NCBI RefSeq assembly: GCF_016887565.1
Contig: NZ_CP069396.1
Location: 2,383,001-2,447,000 of the forward strand
From: Archangium violaceum
GTDB lineage: Bacteria; Myxococcota; Myxococcia; Myxococcales; Myxococcaceae
DNA length: 64,000 nt
Reading direction: 5' to 3'
Positions within the stretch are counted from its first letter, which is position 1, and each line of letters opens with the position of its first letter. The notes beneath the pieces were generated by a model. That model was not told the origin of the DNA. It did no database searches and was given only the letters and a program-made list of their open reading frames with translations. Below are positions 1,721 through 62,687 of this stretch, in pieces. The translations under genes and the position numbers were made by a program.

Positions 1721-2410
1721 ATGGCGTCGACTTCCGAAGGAATGGGGCGTTCCCTGGTTCGGGTGCTCCCTGGCTTGTTGGCAGCGGTGTTGTTCTTCCA
1801 TTTCGGGATGACGGCGCTCTACCTGACGCCGCTCAATCCCATCAAGGTGGCGCTCCTGCCGAAGCTGGAGGGCTACATGCAGCCCTTCTTCGAGCAGCGC
1901 TGGGAGCTGTTCGCGCCCAACCCGGTGGTGGATACGCGCCTGTTGCTGGTGGCGTGCCGGGTGACGGACGAGGCGGGGCAGGTGACGGAGCAGCCGTGGA
2001 CGAACGTGAGCGCTCCCCTGCGAACGCTCAAGGAGCGCTACCGGCTGACGGCTGCGGATCGCATTGATCGCGCGCAGATGACGGCGATGCACCTGCTCTT
2101 CGCGAAGCCAGACGCGCTCTCCGAGAAGTTGCAGGCCAATCCCGAGGAGACGCCGGAGTACAAGAAGGCCATCGAGCTCATCGAGAAGCAGCGCAAATCC
2201 AAACAAGAGCTGGGCCGGGAGATGATGGCGCGCATGGCCTCGGTGGAGTGTGATCGCCTCCACGGGGAGGGGCGGACGAAGGAAGTGCGGGTCCGCCAGG
2301 TGACGGTGAAGTCCCCTCCGTTCTCGCAGCGGTGGAGTCCGGCGGACTCGGGGACGAGCTCGTACATCGATTTCGAGTGGCTGCCCTATCAGCGGGTCGC
2401 CACCTACTGA
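1721..2410 (+). CDS. DUF5819 / SdpA-like membrane-anchored protein
   Basis: A 229-residue protein with one N-terminal membrane segment (about residues 12-33) and a mostly extracytoplasmic remainder. The segment EQRWELFAPNPV after the anchor is the hallmark of DUF5819/SdpA-type proteins. In Bacillus the family member SdpA works with SdpB to mature the toxin SdpC. A charged helical region occupies roughly residues 100-180. The start at 1721 has GGAGGGG 3-4 bases upstream. It is the first gene of an operon with the HTTM protein (29-base gap) and the Tyr-rich peptide. Family membership is by recognition of the motif. The function in this organism is inferred from the known SdpAB pair and from gene order. 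Confidence 0.75.
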   Translation: MASTSEGMGRSLVRVLPGLLAAVLFFHFGMTALYLTPLNPIKVALLPKLEGYMQPFFEQRWELFAPNPVVDTRLLLVACRVTDEAGQVTEQPWTNVSAPLRTLKERYRLTAADRIDRAQMTAMHLLFAKPDALSEKLQANPEETPEYKKAIELIEKQRKSKQELGREMMARMASVECDRLHGEGRTKEVRVRQVTVKSPPFSQRWSPADSGTSSYIDFEWLPYQRVATY

Positions 2411-2439
2411 GCAACGGTCGCAATCGAAGGGAGGTCCTT

Positions 2440-3435
2440 ATGTCCGACGGGCATTGGCAGCGCTTTGTCGAATGGGCGGGCCGCGACCGGATGCGGGTGG
2501 GCGCGAGCCTCTTCCGGGTGGTGGGGGGGATCGCCATCCTCATCGAGTACCTGCTGAACTACGCCCAGCGGCACTACTTCTTCGGGCCGGACGGGCTGTG
2601 GCCCTGGGATGTATTCGCCGCGCACGCCACGGGCACGCCCGCCTTCTCCGTCTACGCGTGGAGCCGCTCCCCCATCTACTTCGAGGTCTGCTTCCACCTG
2701 GGCATCCTGGTGTCCGTGCTGTGGCTGGTGGGCTGGCGGACGCGGTGGATGACGCCGCTGTGCTTCGTGTTCTGGTGGTCCATGCACCAGCGCTTCCCCT
2801 CGCTCTGGGATGGAGGGGACAACCTGATGCGGCTGGCGCTCCTCTACGCCATGTTCGCGGACGTGGGGGCCTATTTCTCCGTGGACGCGCAGCGGCGCGC
2901 CAGGCTTCCCCCGCGGCCGGAGTGGCAGCGGCAGGCCCTGTCCATGCTGCACAACGCGGCCCTCCTCGCCTTCGCGATGCAGATCAGCCTCGTCTATGGC
3001 GTGGCCGGGCTCTACAAGGTGCAGGGCGAGCCCTGGCGAGAGGGGACGGCGCTCTACTACGCCATGCGCGGCGGCCAGTTCGTCTGGCCCGGGGTGAGCG
3101 ACCTCTTCTACCAGAATGCCTATCTCATGACGGCCCTGTCGTACGGGACGGTGGCCTTCCAGATCGCCTTTCCCTTCCTGCTGTTGATGAACCGGTACAC
3201 GCGGCTGCTCGCCGTCTGCATCGGTGTGTCGTTCCACGTCGGCATCTGTCTGTTCCTGGGTCTGGTCACCTTCTCGCTCTTCATGATGGCCGTGGACCTG
3301 GCCCTCATCGGTGACGAGGAGTACCTCGCGGCGGGGCGGTGGTGGGCGCGGGTGTCAGCGAAGCTCAGAGCCCGATGGCCGAGTGCGAGTTTCCCGAGTG
3401 CCGTACCCCCCACAACCAAAGGAGAAGTGAGATGA
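2440..3435 (+). CDS. HTTM-domain (SdpB-like, vitamin K-dependent carboxylase-related) membrane protein
   Basis: A 331-residue polytopic protein. HTTM hallmarks visible are the WDGGDNLMRL segment (about residue 126), LYKVQGEPWREGTALYYAM (about residue 190) and a conserved His in VSFHVGIC near residue 267. HTTM proteins are the bacterial relatives of the vitamin K-dependent gamma-carboxylase membrane domain and include SdpB. SdpB with SdpA is required to make the mature SDP toxin in Bacillus subtilis. I chose ATG 2440 because GGGAGG lies 5 bases upstream. An upstream in-frame start would overlap the previous gene without a binding site. The stop codon overlaps the start of the peptide gene (ATGA, 3432-3435), so the two are probably translationally coupled. 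The cofactor and substrate are unknown. Confidence 0.85.
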   Translation: MSDGHWQRFVEWAGRDRMRVGASLFRVVGGIAILIEYLLNYAQRHYFFGPDGLWPWDVFAAHATGTPAFSVYAWSRSPIYFEVCFHLGILVSVLWLVGWRTRWMTPLCFVFWWSMHQRFPSLWDGGDNLMRLALLYAMFADVGAYFSVDAQRRARLPPRPEWQRQALSMLHNAALLAFAMQISLVYGVAGLYKVQGEPWREGTALYYAMRGGQFVWPGVSDLFYQNAYLMTALSYGTVAFQIAFPFLLLMNRYTRLLAVCIGVSFHVGICLFLGLVTFSLFMMAVDLALIGDEEYLAAGRWWARVSAKLRARWPSASFPSAVPPTTKGEVR

Positions 3436-51920: not shown

Positions 51921-52910
51921 CTAGAGTTTATTGGCGTCAAGGAATCCGAGCGTGGGCAATGTCGATCCTCGGTTGTCGAAAGCAAGGGATGCCTTCAACT
52001 CTCGACGAAGTGCTGCTCGCGACGCTGAGTCTGGTCGAAGAATGGCCACCAACTCTCCAACGAGTTCCAGGCCTGGGATGAGTGGATCCTTCGAGATTTC
52101 ATCCACCGACGCAGTCACCGACACATGCACACGATCTTCGGCGCTAGGGTGCTGAGGCTCATCGACAAGCTCAAACGTCATCATCGGATGATGCATTACC
52201 AGTCCGCGCCCCATCATGTCAGCGAGATCGAGTCCGATTGTGTATTTGAGCGAGCCGTCTAGCGAGAAATACGAAGCCAATCTCTGCAAGAAAAATGTCA
52301 TGCAGAGGGATAGAGTAAGCACGCTGCGTACGTGGATGTGCCCCTTGGTGATTGAGCGTGGGTCGCGCTCCCAGTGTGGCTCTCGATAGAGAAACCCGCC
52401 GTCCCTTTTGAAGGTCCAAAGATAATGTGGTTGCTCCTCCCTGTTAGTGGGGATTACGCCTGCCCACCCCGACGAGCCGAATCCATAAACAGGACCACCG
52501 TGCACGTCTACAAAAGGGAACCCGTGGTAATGTTCAGTGGGAGGGATCGCCAAGGATGGAAACGCCGCCGAGAATTTGGAACGGTCCAGTTGCAATGGCG
52601 TGTTGGGCACGGCCGAGATTTGACGCCAGGACTTGATAGGCTGCCCCGTTCGACCCCAGACTTGTGCAACATCATCCGTTAGCAGGCTCAAGTCCATCTT
52701 GGCTGAGTCACCTCCGAGCAGGCGAAGGATCAACTCTGCAGCGGGTCCTTCACATACAGATGCTCCTGTTTCCCAAGCGGAAATTACCGATTTGCCTCCA
52801 CGAACCCCAAGGCGATGAGCCAGTTGTTCTTGGGTGAGGCGGTGTTGTTGACGTAGGTCGCGGATCAGCGACCCGGGAAGCGCGTCACCAGGCTGGCGTT
52901 GTTTCGTCAT
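51921..52910 (-). CDS. XRE-family HTH protein with unknown C-terminal domain
   Basis: 329 residues. The N-terminal helix-turn-helix is LIRDLRQQHRLTQEQLAHRL followed by GVRGGKSVISAWETG (about 15-57). The remaining ~270 residues include FPFVDVHGGPVYGFGSSGW and LGFLDANKL; I do not recognise the fold. GC content is visibly lower than in the surrounding genes (more A/T in third positions), which suggests recent acquisition. ATG 52910 (MTKQRQPG) is preferred; MLNQPRV at 52961 is in frame but lacks a binding site. No partner gene is adjacent. A ligand-responsive regulator or a mobile-element/defence factor are both possible. Confidence 0.75.
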   Translation of the reverse strand: MTKQRQPGDALPGSLIRDLRQQHRLTQEQLAHRLGVRGGKSVISAWETGASVCEGPAAELILRLLGGDSAKMDLSLLTDDVAQVWGRTGQPIKSWRQISAVPNTPLQLDRSKFSAAFPSLAIPPTEHYHGFPFVDVHGGPVYGFGSSGWAGVIPTNREEQPHYLWTFKRDGGFLYREPHWERDPRSITKGHIHVRSVLTLSLCMTFFLQRLASYFSLDGSLKYTIGLDLADMMGRGLVMHHPMMTFELVDEPQHPSAEDRVHVSVTASVDEISKDPLIPGLELVGELVAILRPDSASRAALRRELKASLAFDNRGSTLPTLGFLDANKL

Positions 52911-53187
52911 CCAAGAATCCCCGATTTGTTCATCAGGACGAACTCGAGGTTGGTTTAACATGACTGAACGGGGGCGGCAAGAGGGTGTGGCCCCTGGCAG
53001 ACCGTCTATGACCGCTTCGTACACTAAAGCCAGGACGGCACTTGGCCGTCCGGAGAAGCCGCCGGTGCCGTCTCCGGAGCGTTCGAAGCGCCAGGTGTGG
53101 AGCGCATCATGGGTGTCCATGGAATCGACTAGGTGCCAGGGCAACCAGGTGGTGGTCTGGGCTGAGGCACGGGCGGGGATGACGAGC
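52911..53187. other. Intergenic stretch ahead of repeat copy B
   Basis: No gene seen. The minus-strand frame of the XRE gene stays open through this stretch to 53144, but without ribosome-binding sites or recognisable protein. It may be its upstream region or a decayed neighbour. Confidence 0.4.
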
Positions 53188-55411: not shown

Positions 55412-56656
55412 TCAGGAGGCCAGGGCTTCCGGAGGCGAGGCGCGGGCGTCCTCCTGCGGCACGTGGGCCTCCGCGTCCTTCGCCTTGGCGATGCGCTCGT
55501 CCAGTTCCGCGGTGAGGTGCTCGAAGACCTCCTTGTTGAGCGTGCCCTGCTGGTAGGCGTTGAGCAGGGCGTCCTTCTCCACGATGAGGACGCGGCGGAT
55601 GGCCTCCTGCTGCTCTTCCTCGTGGAAGCGGGTGGACTGCTGCTTGAGCGTGGTGAGCTCCTGCTCCACCTCCTGCGCCTTCTGCTGGTAGTCGCGCTCC
55701 AGGGGCTCCAGCACGTCCACCGGAATCTCCCGCGCGCGGCGCATGGCCTCCAGCGCCCCGAGCGCCGCGTGGATGGCGCCCAGCCGGCCGCGGGCCAGCT
55801 CGTATTTCTCCTGGTAGACGTCCTTGAGGCCGGTGATGCCCAGCGCCTTGAGCACCGGCGCCATGGTGAGGCCCTGGAAGATCATGGACAGCACCACCAC
55901 GCCGAACGTCATGTTCACCAGCAGCTCGCGGTGGGCGAAGTCGTCCGGAAGGCCCAGCACCAGCACCATGGACACCGCGCCGCGCAGGCCGCTCCAGGTG
56001 AGCACCGCGCTCCACTTCCACGGCAGCTTCTCCGACGTGAAACGCAACAGGCCGGACATGCCGTAGACGACCAGCGCGCGGCCCAGCACCACCGCCCCGT
56101 ACGCCAGCAGGATGGGCAGCCACGACTGGAGCAGCGACGTCAGCTGCACCTCCAGGCCGATGAGCAGGAACACCACCGAGTTGAGCGCGAACGCCAGGTA
56201 CTCCCAGAAGCTCTCCACCGCGATGCGCGTGGTGGGGCCCATGCCCAGGCGCGCCGCCCAGTTGCCGCACAGGAGGCCCGCCACCACCACCGCGATGACG
56301 CCCGAATAGTGGAAGTGCTCCGCCACCACGAAGGACCCGTACGCGGCGATGACCGTGAGGGTGATCTCCACCATGGCGTCCTCCACGCGGAGGATGACCT
56401 TGGACACCGCCTAGCCCACCGCCGCGCCGATGAGGGCGCCCATGCCCGCCACCTTGATGAAGTCCATTACCGCGCCGCCCACGGTGAAGGTCTGGCCTCC
56501 GGCCACGCCCACCACCAGCGTGAAGAGCACCACGGAGGTGCCGTCATTGAGCAGGCTTTCGCCCTCCACCAGGATGGCCAGCCGCTTGGGCGCGCCCAGC
56601 GCCTTGAACAGGCCCACCACCGCGATGGGGTCCGTGGACACGATGAGTGGGCTTGC
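55412..56656 (-). pseudogene. Broken CPA1/NhaP-type cation:proton antiporter
   Basis: The reading starts mid-protein at STDPIAVVGLFKALGAPKR and continues with LVEGESLLNDGTSVVLF, the typical antiporter core with the TDP and E/ND motifs. A TAG at 56411-56413 then replaces a sense codon (VG-stop-AVSKVILR). Downstream the frame continues for 331 residues through membrane helices (LTWSGLRGAVSMVLVLGLP) and a coiled-coil C-terminal tail to the TGA at 55412. The N-terminal third is missing; an IS3-family remnant directly abuts the break. Two independent lesions make it a pseudogene. If TAG were bypassed the remaining part would still lack the first helices. Confidence 0.85.
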
Positions 56657-56940
56657 CCCGGTTACGTGGACAGTAGGGTTATGCTGCCAACTTTTGCGGT
56701 AAGGCCGCAAGCTCAAAATCCACAGGGCTGACGTAGCCCAGCGACGAGTGCCGTCTTTGGCGGTTGTAGAAGACCTCGATGTACTCGAAGAGCGCCGTGC
56801 GAGCCTGCTCGTGCGTGGCGAAGTCGGCCTCGTGGACGAGCTCCATCTTCAAGCTGCTGAAGAAGCTCTCGGCCACGGCGTTGTCCCAGCAGTTGCCCTT
56901 GCGCGACATGCTGCAGCGGATGGCATTGTGCCGTCGGCAC
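56657..56940 (-). mobile_element. IS3-family remnant: 3' end of orfB plus terminal region
   Basis: The minus strand encodes [20 protein letters not shown] followed by [17 protein letters not shown] and ending [17 protein letters not shown]. This is the hallmark C-terminus of IS3-type transposase orfB, including the catalytic Glu in [10 protein letters not shown]. The CDS part ends at 56679. The next ~22 bases (GGTTACGTGGACAG side) are probably the IS end, which joins the antiporter. The N-terminal part (first two catalytic Asp) and orfA are missing, so it cannot move by itself. Confidence 0.85.
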
Positions 56941-57175: not shown

Positions 57176-59602
57176 CTATTCCTTGTCGGGTACTCGCTCG
57201 ATGTAGAACGCCATCGGCACCATCGGCAGATGATGCTCCGAACTCGACATCAGCAGCAGCCGGTTGATTGTATTGTCCTGGATCCCCGTCGGCGCGAACA
57301 CGCAGGAGAGACGTCCGGCATTCGCGCCGTATCCGGTCTTGCGGAGCGCCGATTGCGCGGACTCATGCTCCTTCGCGAAGCGGGACGCGAGGTGCTCCTC
57401 CCAATTTGGCTTCGAACCGCGTTCGGCCACGTCTCCGAGGTAGCGGAGCATGTCCTTGATCAGGCCAGGATAGACGTCGAGCGACTTGCGGTGCGCGAGC
57501 TTAATGATCTCCATCGGATCGTCGGGAAACAAGAAGGTCGCGTTCGCGATGTTCGTCGCCAACGCCCGCAACGGTGCGGGAGGCGCACCAATCCTTGGCT
57601 GCGCCGCCCGGAGTATTTCCCGCCACCTGACAACGCTGTCTGTGACGATCGTCGCACCGGTCGCCTGCGCGAGATACATCGCGATCTCGAAGTTGGGGCA
57701 GGCCTGCATAAACCGCATTTGGCCACCTTCCCCATCGAAAATTCCATCTTGCAGCGCGGTGAGCGGATCCTCCTCCTTCAGCCGCTCGATCTCCCGCATC
57801 GTATCCTCGATACGCTGGGCATCGATGTCCGGATACAATTCCCGAAGACGCTCGATCTGCGCGTCCCTAGGCCACATGAGGAAATCGCGCTTGAAGTTGA
57901 GTTCGACAAACTCCTTCACTCGAGGCTCGCTGTCGATATTGATCCTCATCCCGATCGATCGCTCGTCCGCCATGTGCATCACCTGCCTTCGCAGATGGAA
58001 GTCGAAGTTGCAGGGGTTGGGTATCAGGTTGATCAGGCCCGCATCGACGAGCGGCATGAAGTTCAGGATGAACGCGACCGACTTCAAGAACTCGAGGTGG
58101 AAGCTCTTGGGATGCTCGATAGGGCTGTAGTTCTTGGCGACCGTACCGGGGTGCGTGAGCGGATTCTCGACGATGAGTTCGCCGAAATACAGCGAGGCGC
58201 CGATCGCGAATCCGACGATCCATTGTGGGTGGAGCGTGCCCGTGTAGACCGCCCGGGGGCGACCGTCTGGCTTGGGAAGGAGACGGAGCAGATCGGTCTC
58301 AAGAGGCCAGAGCGCCTCATACAGGAAATAGACCTCCTTGATCTGCTCATCGGTCAGCTCCCGCCGAACTGCGACCCAGTCCTTGCCTCGATCAAGGCCA
58401 ACGATGCTCCGGATACCTCGATGCAGCACGATGTTGCGCTCGCGGATGCTCAGGTCGGTCCAGCTGGGTCTGCGCGAGATGTGCCGCGGTTTGCAACATG
58501 CCCGATACGGATGGCCGGATCCGCAACCGCACGGCGCCGAAGGGCGAAGCTCGCCCTTCGGCGGGATCTTCTTAAGCGCATCGCGCTCCTTCTCGGTCCT
58601 GCCGAACGCATCCTGATAATGAACGCGACCGTCCTCAAACCGAACGAAGGTCTCGCCGCTGTAATTCCAGAGTTCGTCTTTTGGCGGTAGCAGGGTCTCG
58701 CAAATCCGGTCCCAGGCGATGTTGATCGTCCGCTCCGGATGCAGCCATTCCTGCCGACCGGCGGCGACGTATCGCCGTGCGCGCGCCTTAATAACGTGAT
58801 TGATCCGGGCGACCTCCATGCCATTCAGCCGTCTCGTGCGAATGAACTTGTCGGTGCGCACCATTGACTGGCGGAAGTTGCGTGCGAATGTCCGCTTCTC
58901 GAGCGGTGGCGACGACGGATTCTTGGCATACTCGAGGTTGGTGAGGATGAGGCAATAATCGCGGTTCAGGGGGAAGATCGTCTGCGACGCCTTCAGCGCG
59001 ATTCCGGGATCGTGTGGATAGCGGCACAATGCCGCTTCGGGCGGCACTGCGTGGTTGTAGATCGTGACCGGATGGTCGCTGACGATGAACTTTACGTCGG
59101 CATCCTCGGCCGACACGATCTCGCGGACGCCTTCGGTCCAGATCGTGAAGTGAAGCATCCGGATCCGCTGCATCTCCATCATTAGCTCGTTCTGGTCGAG
59201 CGACGGATACTGGGCCTTGAGCCAGTCCAGCCCCTTCGGCGTCCGAATCTTCTGGATATCGATGTATTCGAAGAACGTCTGGAAGTGCTCGTGCCACTGG
59301 GCGACGTCGTCACCCAGAAACGCGCGGACTGCGTCCGCTCCCGTGGTATCAATCGCGCCGAACAGACGGCGCTCGATCTCGTCGTTCACGGACGTTCCGA
59401 AGAAGGTCGAATATAGATCGGCCTGGAAGAAGCAGCGCTTGGTCGGTGCGTCGAATAGCCGCCGCTCCGTGATCACGCGGCCGTCATCCAGCGTCCTGCT
59501 TGGCGGTTTCAAGTCCAGATACGCAAAGGTCGAACGACCAGGCTCGAGGAAGCCCTTCTGATACCAGCGCGGTACGTAGTGGTTGTCTCTTGTCAGTGGC
59601 AT
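57176..59602 (-). CDS. DUF4238 protein fused to a SEC-C motif and unknown C-terminal domain
   Basis: 808 residues. The N-terminus, NHYVPRWYQKGFLEPG, is the signature of DUF4238. The body continues with FIVSDHPVTIYNH (about residue 172), also typical. A SEC-C zinc motif, APCGCGSGHPYRACC, lies near residue 358. The C-terminal ~440 residues are of unknown fold (LMWPRDAQIERLRELYPDID, FEIAMYLAQATGA). The last part includes a PIN-like ATIVTDSVVRWREIL stretch. Base composition is clearly lower in GC than the neighbours. It is flanked by an IS3 remnant and a truncated divergent gene. Function unknown; genes of this type are often seen near mobile and defence loci (inference). Confidence 0.75.
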   Translation of the reverse strand: MPLTRDNHYVPRWYQKGFLEPGRSTFAYLDLKPPSRTLDDGRVITERRLFDAPTKRCFFQADLYSTFFGTSVNDEIERRLFGAIDTTGADAVRAFLGDDVAQWHEHFQTFFEYIDIQKIRTPKGLDWLKAQYPSLDQNELMMEMQRIRMLHFTIWTEGVREIVSAEDADVKFIVSDHPVTIYNHAVPPEAALCRYPHDPGIALKASQTIFPLNRDYCLILTNLEYAKNPSSPPLEKRTFARNFRQSMVRTDKFIRTRRLNGMEVARINHVIKARARRYVAAGRQEWLHPERTINIAWDRICETLLPPKDELWNYSGETFVRFEDGRVHYQDAFGRTEKERDALKKIPPKGELRPSAPCGCGSGHPYRACCKPRHISRRPSWTDLSIRERNIVLHRGIRSIVGLDRGKDWVAVRRELTDEQIKEVYFLYEALWPLETDLLRLLPKPDGRPRAVYTGTLHPQWIVGFAIGASLYFGELIVENPLTHPGTVAKNYSPIEHPKSFHLEFLKSVAFILNFMPLVDAGLINLIPNPCNFDFHLRRQVMHMADERSIGMRINIDSEPRVKEFVELNFKRDFLMWPRDAQIERLRELYPDIDAQRIEDTMREIERLKEEDPLTALQDGIFDGEGGQMRFMQACPNFEIAMYLAQATGATIVTDSVVRWREILRAAQPRIGAPPAPLRALATNIANATFLFPDDPMEIIKLAHRKSLDVYPGLIKDMLRYLGDVAERGSKPNWEEHLASRFAKEHESAQSALRKTGYGANAGRLSCVFAPTGIQDNTINRLLLMSSSEHHLPMVPMAFYIERVPDKE

Positions 59603-59667
59603 CTAGGCGCGTCAGCGTAGCTACGCAACTAGCCGACCACAACTTCCGCGAACCCATCTGCCTCGTT

Positions 59668-59853
59668 ATGCCGATCTTCTCGCGACGCCGGATCCAGCAG
59701 ATGCTCGACGACCTGTCGGGCACTGCCAGTCCGTCCCACTTCATTGGCCGGCTCAACGACAAGCGGTTCGAGAACGCGCTGTCGGCGGAGGCCGAACTTA
59801 CGCTCGTGTGGGCTGCCAACCGGCTCGGCGGGTTCGAATCCGAGCCCAACTGA
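59668..59853 (+). pseudogene. Truncated N-terminal gene fragment divergent from the DUF4238 gene
   Basis: 61 residues: MPIFSRRRIQQMLDDL, IGRLNDKRFENALSAEAELT, LVWAANRLGGFESEPN, then TGA. It reads like the start of a larger protein, with an acidic-hydrophobic helical pattern, and is cut short. Base composition matches the DUF4238 gene rather than the host. The 65-base divergent spacing suggests the pair was acquired together. The family of the full protein is not recognised with confidence. Confidence 0.45.
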
Positions 59854-59944
59854 TTCTCACCCGAGGGACGGAAGCCCGAAGGGGTCTCCACGACCCTGTT
59901 TCCACCGAGGCGACCGCCACGGACGCGCCCCTGACGCAGCCGAG

Positions 59945-60020
59945 GCTGGAGTAGGCCGGCTTGCAGCGGCGCATCTTCGGCGAAGACTTGTGAGCCTGCC
60001 CCAGTTTTGTGGGCCCGCCC
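59945..60020 (+). pseudogene. Possible transposase zinc-binding-domain relic
   Basis: The plus strand reads LQRRIFGEDL, then TGA, then ACPSFVG. This is similar by eye to the 'LKRVFG.D...CP.CGG' region of IS91-type transposases. It is only about 20 codons and carries an internal stop, so the call is weak. Confidence 0.2.
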
Positions 60021-60080
60021 CGGCGTCATGCCGCGACGGACGTCCTCTCGGGAGGTAGGAGGCGATGCGCGCCAGCCAGG

Positions 60081-60839
60081 TCAGGGAGCGACGACCTCAT
60101 GGAACAGCAGCTCGCGCTCCACCTTGAACGACACCGGCTTCTCGTCGAGCAGCGTGCCCTGGGGCGAGTCTCCCAGCTTCAACCGGGCGCCCCGGACGTT
60201 GGGCATGTCATTCACGTCCACGAGGGGGCCGAGCGCGAGCTGCTCCGCGGTGAAGCTCCGGTCCTTGAACTTCACCTTGAGGACGTGGTGGAAGTCCGGG
60301 CTGCCGGACAGCTCGTGCACGAGGAAGGTGTTTCCGGGCGAGCCGAAGACCCGGTACAGCAACCGCGGGACCGAGGCGCTGCGGGGGTGGAGCTGGCTGT
60401 GCCAGGGAATGGCCTTCACCTGGACTTCCACGCCCTTCCACTCCGGGCTGGCGGCGCCGGCCTTGGAGATGGACACCTTCAGGCTCTTGAGCTTCCCGTC
60501 GCGCACGGCGGCCAGGTCGAACGGCGCGTCCGCCTGGAGGGTGTAGCTCCCCGAGGAGAAGTCGGGCTTGCGTGTCTTCCAGGCGGGATGGACCAGCTTC
60601 GCCGAGATGAACAGTTGCAGGTTGTCGGGCGGGGTGAACGTGGCGAGCGGCCACAGGAAGGCGGCCTCGGGCGTCCCCATCACCAGCATGGGATGGGTCC
60701 CCACCATGGACTCGGAGCGCACCTCGGTGGCCGGCTGGGGGGGAACCTCGAGGCGCGAGGACACAGGCGGCGTGGGTGCCTGCGCCAACACGAAATGAAA
60801 GGCGGGAGGAACGTCGGCGTGCATGGATGGCTCCATCAC
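60081..60839 (-). CDS. Hypothetical protein
   Basis: 252 residues, or 247 from the internal ATG at 60824, which has GGAG at a good distance. The sequence is soluble and beta-rich (LQLFISAKLVHPAWKTRKPD, LYRVFGSPGNTFLVHELSGS, VKFKDRSFTAEQLALGPLVD). It has no clear signal peptide and no catalytic motif I recognise. Same direction as the NlpC/P60 lipoprotein gene upstream (57-base gap), so they may be co-transcribed. Confidence 0.6.
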   Translation of the reverse strand: MMEPSMHADVPPAFHFVLAQAPTPPVSSRLEVPPQPATEVRSESMVGTHPMLVMGTPEAAFLWPLATFTPPDNLQLFISAKLVHPAWKTRKPDFSSGSYTLQADAPFDLAAVRDGKLKSLKVSISKAGAASPEWKGVEVQVKAIPWHSQLHPRSASVPRLLYRVFGSPGNTFLVHELSGSPDFHHVLKVKFKDRSFTAEQLALGPLVDVNDMPNVRGARLKLGDSPQGTLLDEKPVSFKVERELLFHEVVAP

Positions 60840-60896
60840 GGCGGGAAGGGACCGGGGCTGGCGCGGACTCCAGCCCCGGTCAACCCCACCGCGTGA

Positions 60897-61538
60897 CTAG
60901 AGGACCTTCTTGCGGACCGGCCAGTAGGTGCGGCCGTCGGCGGTCCACTTCAGCGAGCCATCCGAGTTCTTCACGAACGGGATGTTGACGTCCTGGGCGA
61001 CCGTCCCGCACTGCAGCTCCTGGAAGATGCGCGCCGAGCCATCCGTGTTCCAGCCGTGGAAGATCATCGTGTGGCCTTTGTTGGTGCTGGCGTTGTGGGT
61101 GGTGATGGCATCACCCATCTGCATGTCCCAGTAGCCCACGCGCTGGGTCACGTTGGTGTCGCCGTAGATGGTGCCCGTCGTCCAGCCCGGACCGGGAACG
61201 CCCCACGCCCAGGACACCAGGCCCGAGCAGTCGGAGCGGTACCCGTTCCACTCCGCGGTGTTCGCGTCGCCGTTGCGCACACAGGTGCCACCGCAGATGG
61301 CGTCCGGGCCGCCGTTCACGCCACCGCAGTACGGCATGCGCACGTCGACCCACCGCCAGGCCCGGTAGTCCACGTCACCACGGGTCAGCCCCTGCATCAC
61401 CGTGGCCGTGGGCTCTGTCACCACCCCGCTCTCCGCGGCGTCGCCATCGGGCAGACCCATCTCCGACCCACCGCAGCCAAACAGAGACACCGACACGAGC
61501 GCCATCACGGTCGCCCGACCGAAATACTTCACGAACAT
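60897..61538 (-). CDS. NlpC/P60-like lipoprotein (putative peptidoglycan or peptide hydrolase)
   Basis: 213 residues. Signal peptide with lipobox LFGC (Cys22). The papain-like core shows Cys104 in RSDCSGLVSWAWG and His156 in KGHTMIFHGW, the expected catalytic pair of the NlpC/P60 superfamily. Four further Cys (CGG...ICGGTC) may form disulfides. GGGGAAG lies upstream of the ATG. A promoter-like sequence lies at 61590-61614. Likely a cell-wall or secreted endopeptidase anchored to the membrane. Confidence 0.8.
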   Translation of the reverse strand: MFVKYFGRATVMALVSVSLFGCGGSEMGLPDGDAAESGVVTEPTATVMQGLTRGDVDYRAWRWVDVRMPYCGGVNGGPDAICGGTCVRNGDANTAEWNGYRSDCSGLVSWAWGVPGPGWTTGTIYGDTNVTQRVGYWDMQMGDAITTHNASTNKGHTMIFHGWNTDGSARIFQELQCGTVAQDVNIPFVKNSDGSLKWTADGRTYWPVRKKVL

Positions 61539-61560
61539 GGACTTCCCCTCTTTGTTTTGC

Positions 61561-61614
61561 TCATCAGTCGTTGATGAGTGAATGCAAGCTATATAGAGAA
61601 AACTCAGTCGTCAA
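61561..61614 (-). promoter_or_regulatory. Promoter and palindrome ahead of the NlpC/P60 gene
   Basis: On the minus strand TTGACG (61609-61614) is followed by the TATATAG tract (61590-61595 and next bases); spacing is 13-15 bases, so the fit is imperfect. Between promoter and gene is the palindrome TCATCA-GTCGT-TGATGA (61561-61577). CAGTCG followed by an AT-rich half site recurs at 61605-61618, suggesting an operator. Confidence 0.4.
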
Positions 61615-61757
61615 TGATTCTGATTTGTTCTTGGATTGCGATGCTCTCGAGTGCGTCTGCCATTGATGGAGCAACGTCTCGTTGCTGGAAGGGAATGGCA
61701 CTCGAGTCCCGCTCGCGCGCGCAACCGCGCGTCAACGGGAAGGAAGAGGGGCGGCGA

Positions 61758-62510
61758 CTACCACCCGGTCGGCGGCACCGGAGCGCAGGTGTAGCCCGCC
61801 GGGCAGCTTCCGTTGCCGTCGCGCACCAGCTCGGTGCCTCCGAGCCGGGTCGTGCCCGACTCCAGGTAGAGCGACTGCACGATGCTGGTGTCCGTGTTCC
61901 AGGGGGTGATGGTGATCGTGTTGAAGTCCTGACCCGCGGAGGCCATGTAGTTCCACACGCTGTGGTTCTGATCGACGCCCGGGGTGATGACGTTGAACGT
62001 CGCGCCGTAGTTGTAGAACTCGCCGTTGGTGTAGAAGCGAGCCTGATAGGTGGTCGGGAACACGGACACCCGGTACTCCGTCCGCCAGACCGCCTTCACC
62101 GCGAAGCGCCGCTGCCCCGAGGTCGGAGACGAGCCATACCACCACCCCTCGAACAGGCGGATGGAGAATTGATCCGCCGACGGCGGGGTGGGAGGCACCG
62201 GCGTGGCGAACTCGTTCCACACGAAGATCATGCTCTTGCAGCCCGTGGAGGGCTTGTTGTTGGAGTCGTACGCGTCATTGTAGAAGGAGACGTCGTAGAC
62301 GTTGGCCAGGGAGGTCGGCTTCGCCGCCACCACGTAACGGCCCGCGGGCAGATTGCACTGCTGCGAATCCTGCAGCGGCGGGTTCAGCATCTGCTCGCTC
62401 TGTCCGAGCGCCTGGCTCTCGACCTCCTGAGGCTGGGCGGACTCGGGGCCGCACGCGGCGGTGCCAGCCGTGCAAAGGAGGAGGAGCAGGTTCTTGGAAA
62501 TGGAGTTCAT
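61758..62510 (-). CDS. Lipoprotein of unknown function
   Basis: 250 residues with a lipobox TAAC (Cys20). The mature part is beta-rich and aromatic (YDVSFYNDAYDSNNKPSTG, FEGWWYGSSPTS, FYTNGEFYNYGATFNV), ending in a Cys pair (CPAGYTC). No family recognised; an extracellular beta-sandwich is likely. It is the first of a run of secreted proteins read in the same direction. 61539-61757 between it and the next gene holds the promoter features already listed. Confidence 0.65.
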   Translation of the reverse strand: MNSISKNLLLLLCTAGTAACGPESAQPQEVESQALGQSEQMLNPPLQDSQQCNLPAGRYVVAAKPTSLANVYDVSFYNDAYDSNNKPSTGCKSMIFVWNEFATPVPPTPPSADQFSIRLFEGWWYGSSPTSGQRRFAVKAVWRTEYRVSVFPTTYQARFYTNGEFYNYGATFNVITPGVDQNHSVWNYMASAGQDFNTITITPWNTDTSIVQSLYLESGTTRLGGTELVRDGNGSCPAGYTCAPVPPTGW

Positions 62511-62687
62511 CGAGCTGTCGTCCTTGAGTGCTCTCGTTCGTCATGAACGATTGCCCTTCAAGACACAGGCAGGATTTTGGATGTCACATTCTCCACGAAT
62601 CGTCGTTGCAGGTTCGGTCTTCTCGATCGTTTCTACCCCAACTACGCGGGTTGCTTCGTTCCACGCCGCGTCCCCCAGGCGGGAGGC
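62511..62687. other. Upstream region of the lipoprotein gene
   Basis: AT-richer non-coding sequence, probably with its promoter; no gene seen. Confidence 0.4.

Follow-up and report, generated by a model that had tools for sequence, protein, structure and literature searches.

What role could be played by an intact, apparently foreign gene that lies between the remnants of other elements in a myxobacterial chromosome? We address this question for a gene of Archangium violaceum whose 808-amino-acid product combines a DUF4238 domain, a zinc knuckle of the SEC-C type and a long C-terminal domain (CTD). The gene is an intact open reading frame (ORF) with an ATG start on the reverse strand, at positions 57176 to 59602 of the stretch of DNA analyzed here. 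This stretch, called the window, comprises 64,000 nucleotides (positions 2,383,001 to 2,447,000 of contig NZ_CP069396.1) of a 13.2-Mb genome assembled as one contig; the genomes of five other species of the genus are 12.5 to 13.8 Mb.

The explanation that we prefer, with a probability of roughly 0.6, is that this horizontally moving gene encodes an anti-phage defence protein that acts on its own and represents an extended form of the DUF4238 type. This reading draws on one validated relative of the family and on the settings in which homologues occur. The relative is a single DUF4238 protein from a hotspot of P2-like prophages that confers strong resistance to phage T7; the study that tested it describes its molecular function as unknown (PMC9122126). 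For such a validated anti-phage domain, the long form should help to uncover how it works and what sets it off, because it has a fixed second domain, shares core residues with the short forms and exists in many natural copies. 

A recurrent three-part protein

The protein consists of DUF4238 (about residues 1 to 290), a linker, the SEC-C-type zinc knuckle (356 to 372) and the CTD (about 385 to 808). An earlier, sequence-only reading of the window had described a DUF4238 domain fused to a SEC-C motif. The DUF4238 assignment is firm (PF14022, 50.1 bits against a Pfam cut-off of 27). The SEC-C model (PF02810) scores 11 bits in the window protein, under its cut-off of 20.4, and passes in one homologue, from a viral contig (L045; 21.6 bits). 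The putative zinc ligands C358, C360, C369 and C370, in the pattern C-x-C-x8-C-(C/H), are nevertheless invariant in 17 of 17 aligned homologues, and a profile of the long family matches YchJ (E 6e-4) and, at E 0.014 or weaker, the zinc knuckles of SecA proteins. The C-x-C-x8-C-C motif is thus held in common with SecA and YchJ; beyond this small module, the searches gave no further likeness between those proteins and ours. Searches of the whole protein against NCBIfam, PHROGs and PADLOC gave nothing strong.

The sequence-only reading could not name this architecture, and neither could we from the literature. The long form is neither named nor described in any open-licence paper found by searching for DUF4238, for DUF4238 with SEC-C or for DUF4238 with phage. 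The open-licence literature yielded no paper combining DUF4238 with SEC-C and none on myxobacteria with defence terms, and "SEC-C motif" is absent from the best 20 of 397 open-licence papers matching SEC-C and defence terms. The architecture is, however, recurrent and conserved rather than a local or one-off fusion. The order DUF4238, knuckle, CTD recurs throughout the alignment of 17 long proteins, in which one plasmid copy does not have the last tens of residues and another does not have the first.

The CTD has so far been met almost exclusively in this combination. Among 398 Pseudomonadota genomes, 36 have DUF4238 and four, including the centre genome, have the CTD, which in each case is fused to DUF4238 in one frame (752 to 833 amino acids). 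A scan of viral contigs with the CTD found six loci, all on contigs already matched by the whole protein. There are three exceptions to a statement that the CTD occurs only fused. A 304-amino-acid CTD-only protein (L019, 8022-8936) is encoded beside a Tn3 transposase gene; over 283 residues, it shares 70% identity with the C-terminal portion of a long homologue (L016), and on this similarity it is probably a cut copy of a long gene. A 181-amino-acid frame in another genome (L079, G321:C1:2266594-2267091), without DUF4238, matches residues 639 to 804 at 40% and is probably a cut copy as well. A Novosphingobium plasmid carries a 30-residue piece of the CTD without DUF4238. In a Phyllobacterium plasmid homologue (L011, 8001-10452), one in-frame stop near the linker splits the two halves. 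From these comparisons, the last 435 residues seem to occur obligatorily with DUF4238, within a minority subfamily.

Relation to known DUF4238 proteins

The long family resembles the DUF4238 system of Rousset et al. in having the Pfam DUF4238 domain, in consisting of a single gene and in being carried by mobile elements (PMC9122126). The comparison was made with the Pfam domain, the PADLOC profile and short DUF4238 proteins. Length sets the two apart. The PADLOC profile DUF4238-Pers, which we take to represent the Rousset et al. system, spans 309 residues, whereas members of the window family are about 800 residues long and include a zinc knuckle as well as a CTD.

Short DUF4238 proteins were also compared with the long family. 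Two of them, encoded by ORFs of about 410 to 445 residues without the CxC..CC knuckle and without the CTD, belong to the same branch of N-terminal domains as the long form. The one from viral contig L046 is 35% identical to the N-terminal domain of the long form over 352 residues, and that of genome G875 (L137) matches the long-family profile with E 3e-95. Across 13 short and 17 long proteins, 13 positions are conserved, including H8, E77, R120, D176 and N268, a count that is biased towards likeness because the short proteins had been pre-selected with the long-family profile (E 0.01; 31 loci). The window family and the short proteins share H-x-V-P, E, R-x-P, D-x-P and N positions, and nine residues (H8, V10, P11, E77, R120, P122, D176, P178 and N268) are conserved in at least 10 of the 13 short and at least 15 of the 17 long proteins. 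The pattern of conserved core residues suggests an active site.

Foreign origin and mobile carriage

The sequence-only reading had judged the gene to be foreign and lower in G+C content (GC) than its surroundings, and both judgments hold. The gene has a GC of 0.600, against a window mean of 0.688, and a GC at third codon positions (GC3) of 0.779, against a median of 0.884 for 45 window ORFs of at least 150 amino acids that were chosen by a crude GC3 rule. Its GC is the second lowest among these ORFs; the lowest belongs to the ORF at 51921-53144 (0.566). Four Sphingomonas homologues have GC 0.61 to 0.63 and GC3 0.74 to 0.81, so the gene has the composition of its likely donors. A composition that is normal for the probable donors is what transfer predicts.

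The distribution is patchy. A genome scan found eight full-length loci at 58 to 72% identity. Six of these (L002-L004, L006, L008 and L009) are in five Sphingomonas, Sphingopyxis and Tsuneonella isolates and on a plasmid-like small Sphingomonas contig; the other two are in a Sphingomonadales metagenome-assembled genome (L007) and an uncultured bin (L005). In the family sample around Sphingomonas Leaf33 (centre genome counted), 8 of 397 genomes have any match and 5 of 397 a full-length one. Matches occur in 4 of 195 Myxococcota genomes, of which two are full length (the window genome and G034) and two are short pieces, and the gene was found in none of five other species of the genus that were examined. 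Each of 12 genomes or records checked has a single copy, that of Phyllobacterium being in two pieces.

In a tree of 26 sequences (LG+C20+F+G4), the window protein falls within a nine-member clade (support 100/99) together with a viral contig, an uncultured bin, four Sphingomonas isolates and two genomes of the Leaf33 family sample (G270 and G543); within the clade, the precise position of the window protein has weak support (84/76). The second myxobacterial copy, in G034, groups elsewhere with a viral contig (100/99). Because the two copies lie in different parts of the tree, two independent acquisitions of a mobile gene by myxobacteria are suggested. Distribution, tree and composition together support a Sphingomonadales-like alphaproteobacterial donor for the window gene. 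On this account, a block of about 2.7 kb that included the start of a second gene would have been acquired from such a donor and would now lie between insertion-sequence (IS) and repeat remnants.

Carriage by plasmids and prophage-like contigs was observed directly, and the mobility proposed in the sequence-only reading is thereby borne out. Homologues occur in 15 plasmid records from alpha-, beta- and gammaproteobacteria; in 13 of the records a single place covers 80% or more of the query, and 8 of the 15 are predicted to be conjugative. Viral contigs provided eight loci, of which seven are full length and one is restricted to the N-terminal domain. Their neighbours were checked with profiles in L039, L043, L045 and L046, and for one gene of L040 (a DNA methyltransferase). 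In L043 the gene is 73 bp from a gene resembling a terminase small subunit (E 2e-6), in L045 (213-4035) a tail-completion gene and a baseplate gene flank it, and in L039 a tape-measure gene is about 1 kb away; such positions would be suitable for cargo genes. On the 11-kb contig L046, the short DUF4238 gene (2178-3413) and a Zot-like gene are about 1 kb apart, which suggests carriage by a filamentous phage. The hotspot reported for P2-like phages is A-Q (PMC9122126), and the tail-completion/baseplate site of L045 differs from it.

The family as a whole is under strong purifying constraint. Comparison of the window gene with four homologues gave nonsynonymous differences per site (pN) of 0.18 to 0.20 and synonymous differences per site (pS) of 0.60 to 0.68, values that speak to the family and not to selection inside this genome.

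Modelled structure and proposed mechanism

The CTD alone (residues 373 to 808) was modelled by AlphaFold2 with a mean predicted local distance difference test score (pLDDT) of 83.5 and a predicted template modelling score of 0.83, as an alpha/beta domain with long helices. None of its 71 Foldseek matches reached E 0.001. In VIA-align, where a Z below 8 may reflect merely a common arrangement and where rows for the CTD were tied with unrelated ones, the top row was a helical segment of TBK1 (Z 5.5 over 90 residues). Many rows were class-I tRNA synthetase and cyclodipeptide synthase folds with Z of 4 to 5. Tyrosyl-tRNA synthetases and cyclodipeptide synthase gave Z of 4.7 to 5.1 with root-mean-square deviations (rmsd) of 4.4 to 5.0 over 152 to 161 residues, and synthetase-like rows reached 5.3. 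The Thermus domain 3ix7, presumably a PIN domain, gave Z 4.2 with an rmsd of 4.2 over 118 residues, and Csm6 gave Z 3.3. We take these matches to stand for HUP/Rossmann-type (tyrosyl-tRNA synthetase, cyclodipeptide synthase), PIN and CARF folds. Because the VIA-align likeness is weak and the Foldseek matches all fall short of E 0.001, the CTD is assigned to none of them. In the model, it appears to fold confidently without a clear structural relative among solved structures, and we do not claim a new fold.

We propose a division of labour among the three parts. The N-terminal DUF4238 core (H8, E77, R120, D176 and N268) would be the effector, and would probably be enzymatic. SecA-type zinc knuckles serve as docking elements for a nucleic acid or protein partner, and by analogy the knuckle may dock the present protein in the same manner. 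The conserved alpha/beta CTD would be a sensor or switch that holds the effector off until infection; we assign it the sensor or regulatory half with low confidence. A more far-reaching version, in which the CTD would be a novel domain acting as sensor or as second effector and the protein would provide self-contained, one-protein sensor-effector immunity that crosses phyla on prophages and plasmids, is put forward tentatively, at odds somewhat below even.

Possible defence setting of the homologues

The sequence-only reading had placed the gene in a mobile or defence setting and had suggested looking for phage-defence genes beside homologues. Such genes do lie near some of them. A gene for a Dsr1-type SIR2 protein is near the homologue in L005 (E 2e-90), an Mrr protein with a NACHT match under the Pfam cut-off and a SLATT protein are near that of L013, and in L015 a PDC-S06 ATPase gene adjoins the homologue, with LmuA 3.3 kb off. 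A DUF2971/PDC-S31 neighbour is present in L008. Other neighbours are a DUF5677 gene in three Sphingomonas-group genomes (L002, L003 and L082), an HNH_5 gene in one of them, a DUF4062 gene in L009, a gene for a member of the phosphorylase superfamily at a distance of about 1.2 kb in G034, a relaxase gene upstream in L006 and a gene for a 476-amino-acid protein on two Sinorhizobium plasmids. Since neighbours vary between loci, the gene behaves as a single-gene unit without a constant partner.

Several observations weigh against a defence function. In a systematic scan, 14 of the 29 long-form loci (window aside; some being near-identical, cut or short-flanked) were compared with 14 control stretches, taken from the genomes or records of these loci, by using PADLOC profiles at E 1e-5. 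The 130 flanking ORFs matched 85 PADLOC families and the 133 control ORFs 74, which is no clear enrichment; the tally counts families rather than proteins, and the ATPase of L015 alone contributes 17 families to the flanks. (ORFs were called by the crude GC3 rule, which missed the partner gene of L004, described below; this gene was added by hand beforehand.) Of ten neighbours picked by eye and scanned singly, five had no PADLOC match. The defence setting is therefore suggestive, and the comparison of neighbours with controls is not decisive.

The protein itself matches the PADLOC DUF4238 profile weakly and in part (E 0.011, 13.3 bits, residues 142 to 218), and PADLOC profiles named E2 match the zinc-knuckle region with a slightly higher score (E 0.005). 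No match at E 1e-3 was found among 50,697 phage records. The comparison of core residues is affected by the pre-selection noted above, and the effector role proposed for the N-terminal domain comes from sequence conservation only, because this domain could not be modelled: most of it has pLDDT below 50 in the full-length AlphaFold2 model and is unusable. For that model, Foldseek found no match at E 0.001 against PDB (86 matches at E 10) or against viral models (37 matches), and the best VIA-align Z was 4.5. Lastly, the divergent partner gene described below is broken in this genome and the five sister species are without the DUF4238 gene, so that selection for function here is at most a possibility.

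Borders of the locus

These last points lead to the competing explanation that survives best, although we consider it unlikely: the acquired gene could be an inert passenger, caught among remnants of an IS and a repeat at the scar of a rearrangement and not yet decayed. The borders of the locus are compatible with this idea. As the sequence-only reading had recognized, the remnant on one side belongs to an IS3-family element. It is the orfB end (about 56646 to 56922, reverse strand), identified by a match to rve_2/rve_3 and by 90 to 93% nucleotide identity to IS copies in sister genomes, and it stops about 250 bp before the DUF4238 gene. The remnant cuts a Na+/H+ antiporter gene (PF00999; 55412-56716, reverse strand) that forms the left chromosomal flank. 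This gene has lost its start and is split over two frames; its homologue in sister genome G005 is open (534 amino acids). Homology to G005 ends at 56646 on the left and resumes on the right at 60062, with 98% identity over 60062-62600. The two flanks lie on different contigs of G005, distant from contig ends, and the block therefore sits at a rearrangement junction. The flanks are remnants, antiporter and partner are both broken, and the gene is absent from all five sister species. Against inertness, the frame is open over all 808 codons while the protein differs in about 30% of its amino acids from the closest known copies, and pN/pS is low, although these values give little information on the time since arrival.

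A possible accessory gene of its carrier

Another explanation retains a function for the gene and denies it a general role in defence. As an accessory gene of mobile elements, it might act in superinfection exclusion limited to relatives of the carrier, in plasmid incompatibility or in competition between elements. Carriage on plasmids, many of them predicted conjugative, the prophage-like contigs and the relaxase gene upstream in L006 speak for it. We judge this slightly less probable than inertness; the wide host range and the copies beside unrelated defence genes count against it, as does the resistance to T7 conferred by a DUF4238 protein of a P2-like prophage (PMC9122126).

The divergent partner gene

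On the forward strand, a remnant of a second gene (59668-59901) starts divergently from the DUF4238 gene. The sequence-only reading had seen a cut gene start of 61 residues here and had asked whether full-length homologues are placed divergently. The remnant corresponds to the first 78 codons of a 445-amino-acid homologue: 61 codons are open, a stop follows at 59851-59853 and in-frame homology continues to about 59901, so that the foreign block extends some 50 bp past the stop. The full-length homologue (L004, 6603-7937) is in Sphingomonas sp. YR710, 63 bp from the DUF4238 gene and divergent, and a tblastn search with it matched the window at 79% over 78 residues (59668-59901). The corresponding intergenic stretch in the window (59603-59667) has 65 bp and is probably a promoter region. 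For the 61 open codons, pN is 0.11 and pS 0.54, and as this ratio is similar to that of the main gene, the decay of the partner may be recent.

The arrangement invites the explanation that the DUF4238 protein needs its divergent partner, in which case only half of a two-gene system would survive here and the locus would be inactive. The partner is adjacent in three settings, divergently in the window and in YR710, and directly upstream on the same strand as a 35% homologue in G543 (L083, 7554-8906). Its alignment shows the pattern E-x-E-L / EP-W / PD ... (E/D)-x-(K/A), which can be read as a core resembling PD-(D/E)XK. Distant relatives occur on eight Bradyrhizobium plasmid records (for example, L060, 6001-7056), and in the two records inspected one gene separates the relative from an AbiEii-type gene. 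The gene matches no Pfam family, has no relative in PDB (best E 0.19) and was not found in viral contigs.

We nonetheless regard a two-gene requirement as distinctly improbable. A tblastn search of the available flanks, some of them short, found the partner at E 1e-4 only in the window, L004, L083 and two Bradyrhizobium stretches. The DUF5677 gene and the gene for the 476-amino-acid protein take its place in the loci named above, and in L043 and L045 the DUF4238 gene stands alone beside or between phage structural genes. For an ordinary myxobacterial housekeeping gene at a conserved position, we found no supporting evidence, and full-length copies in 2 of 195 Myxococcota, none in the five sister species, and nesting in a Sphingomonas-dominated clade leave that explanation with practically no probability.

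A repeat shared with a second DUF4238 locus

Homology to the partner gene ends next to a 99-bp repeat (59903-60001). In 58 relatives, with at most 14 candidates scored per genome, only matches of 36 bases or fewer were found. The repeat was considered as an end associated with an IS91-type transposase; this reading was dropped, as it found no Pfam support and no plasmid match. The sole other copy found in the 13.2-Mb genome is 85% identical (L059, 6071-6169; G000:C1:5274070-5274168). Both copies are upstream of DUF4238 genes, yet those two genes have no DNA likeness to each other. The second copy is about 0.7 kb upstream of the other DUF4238 gene of the host genome, a short one that is broken into two frames (L059, 4420-5401; G000:C1:5272449-5273316).

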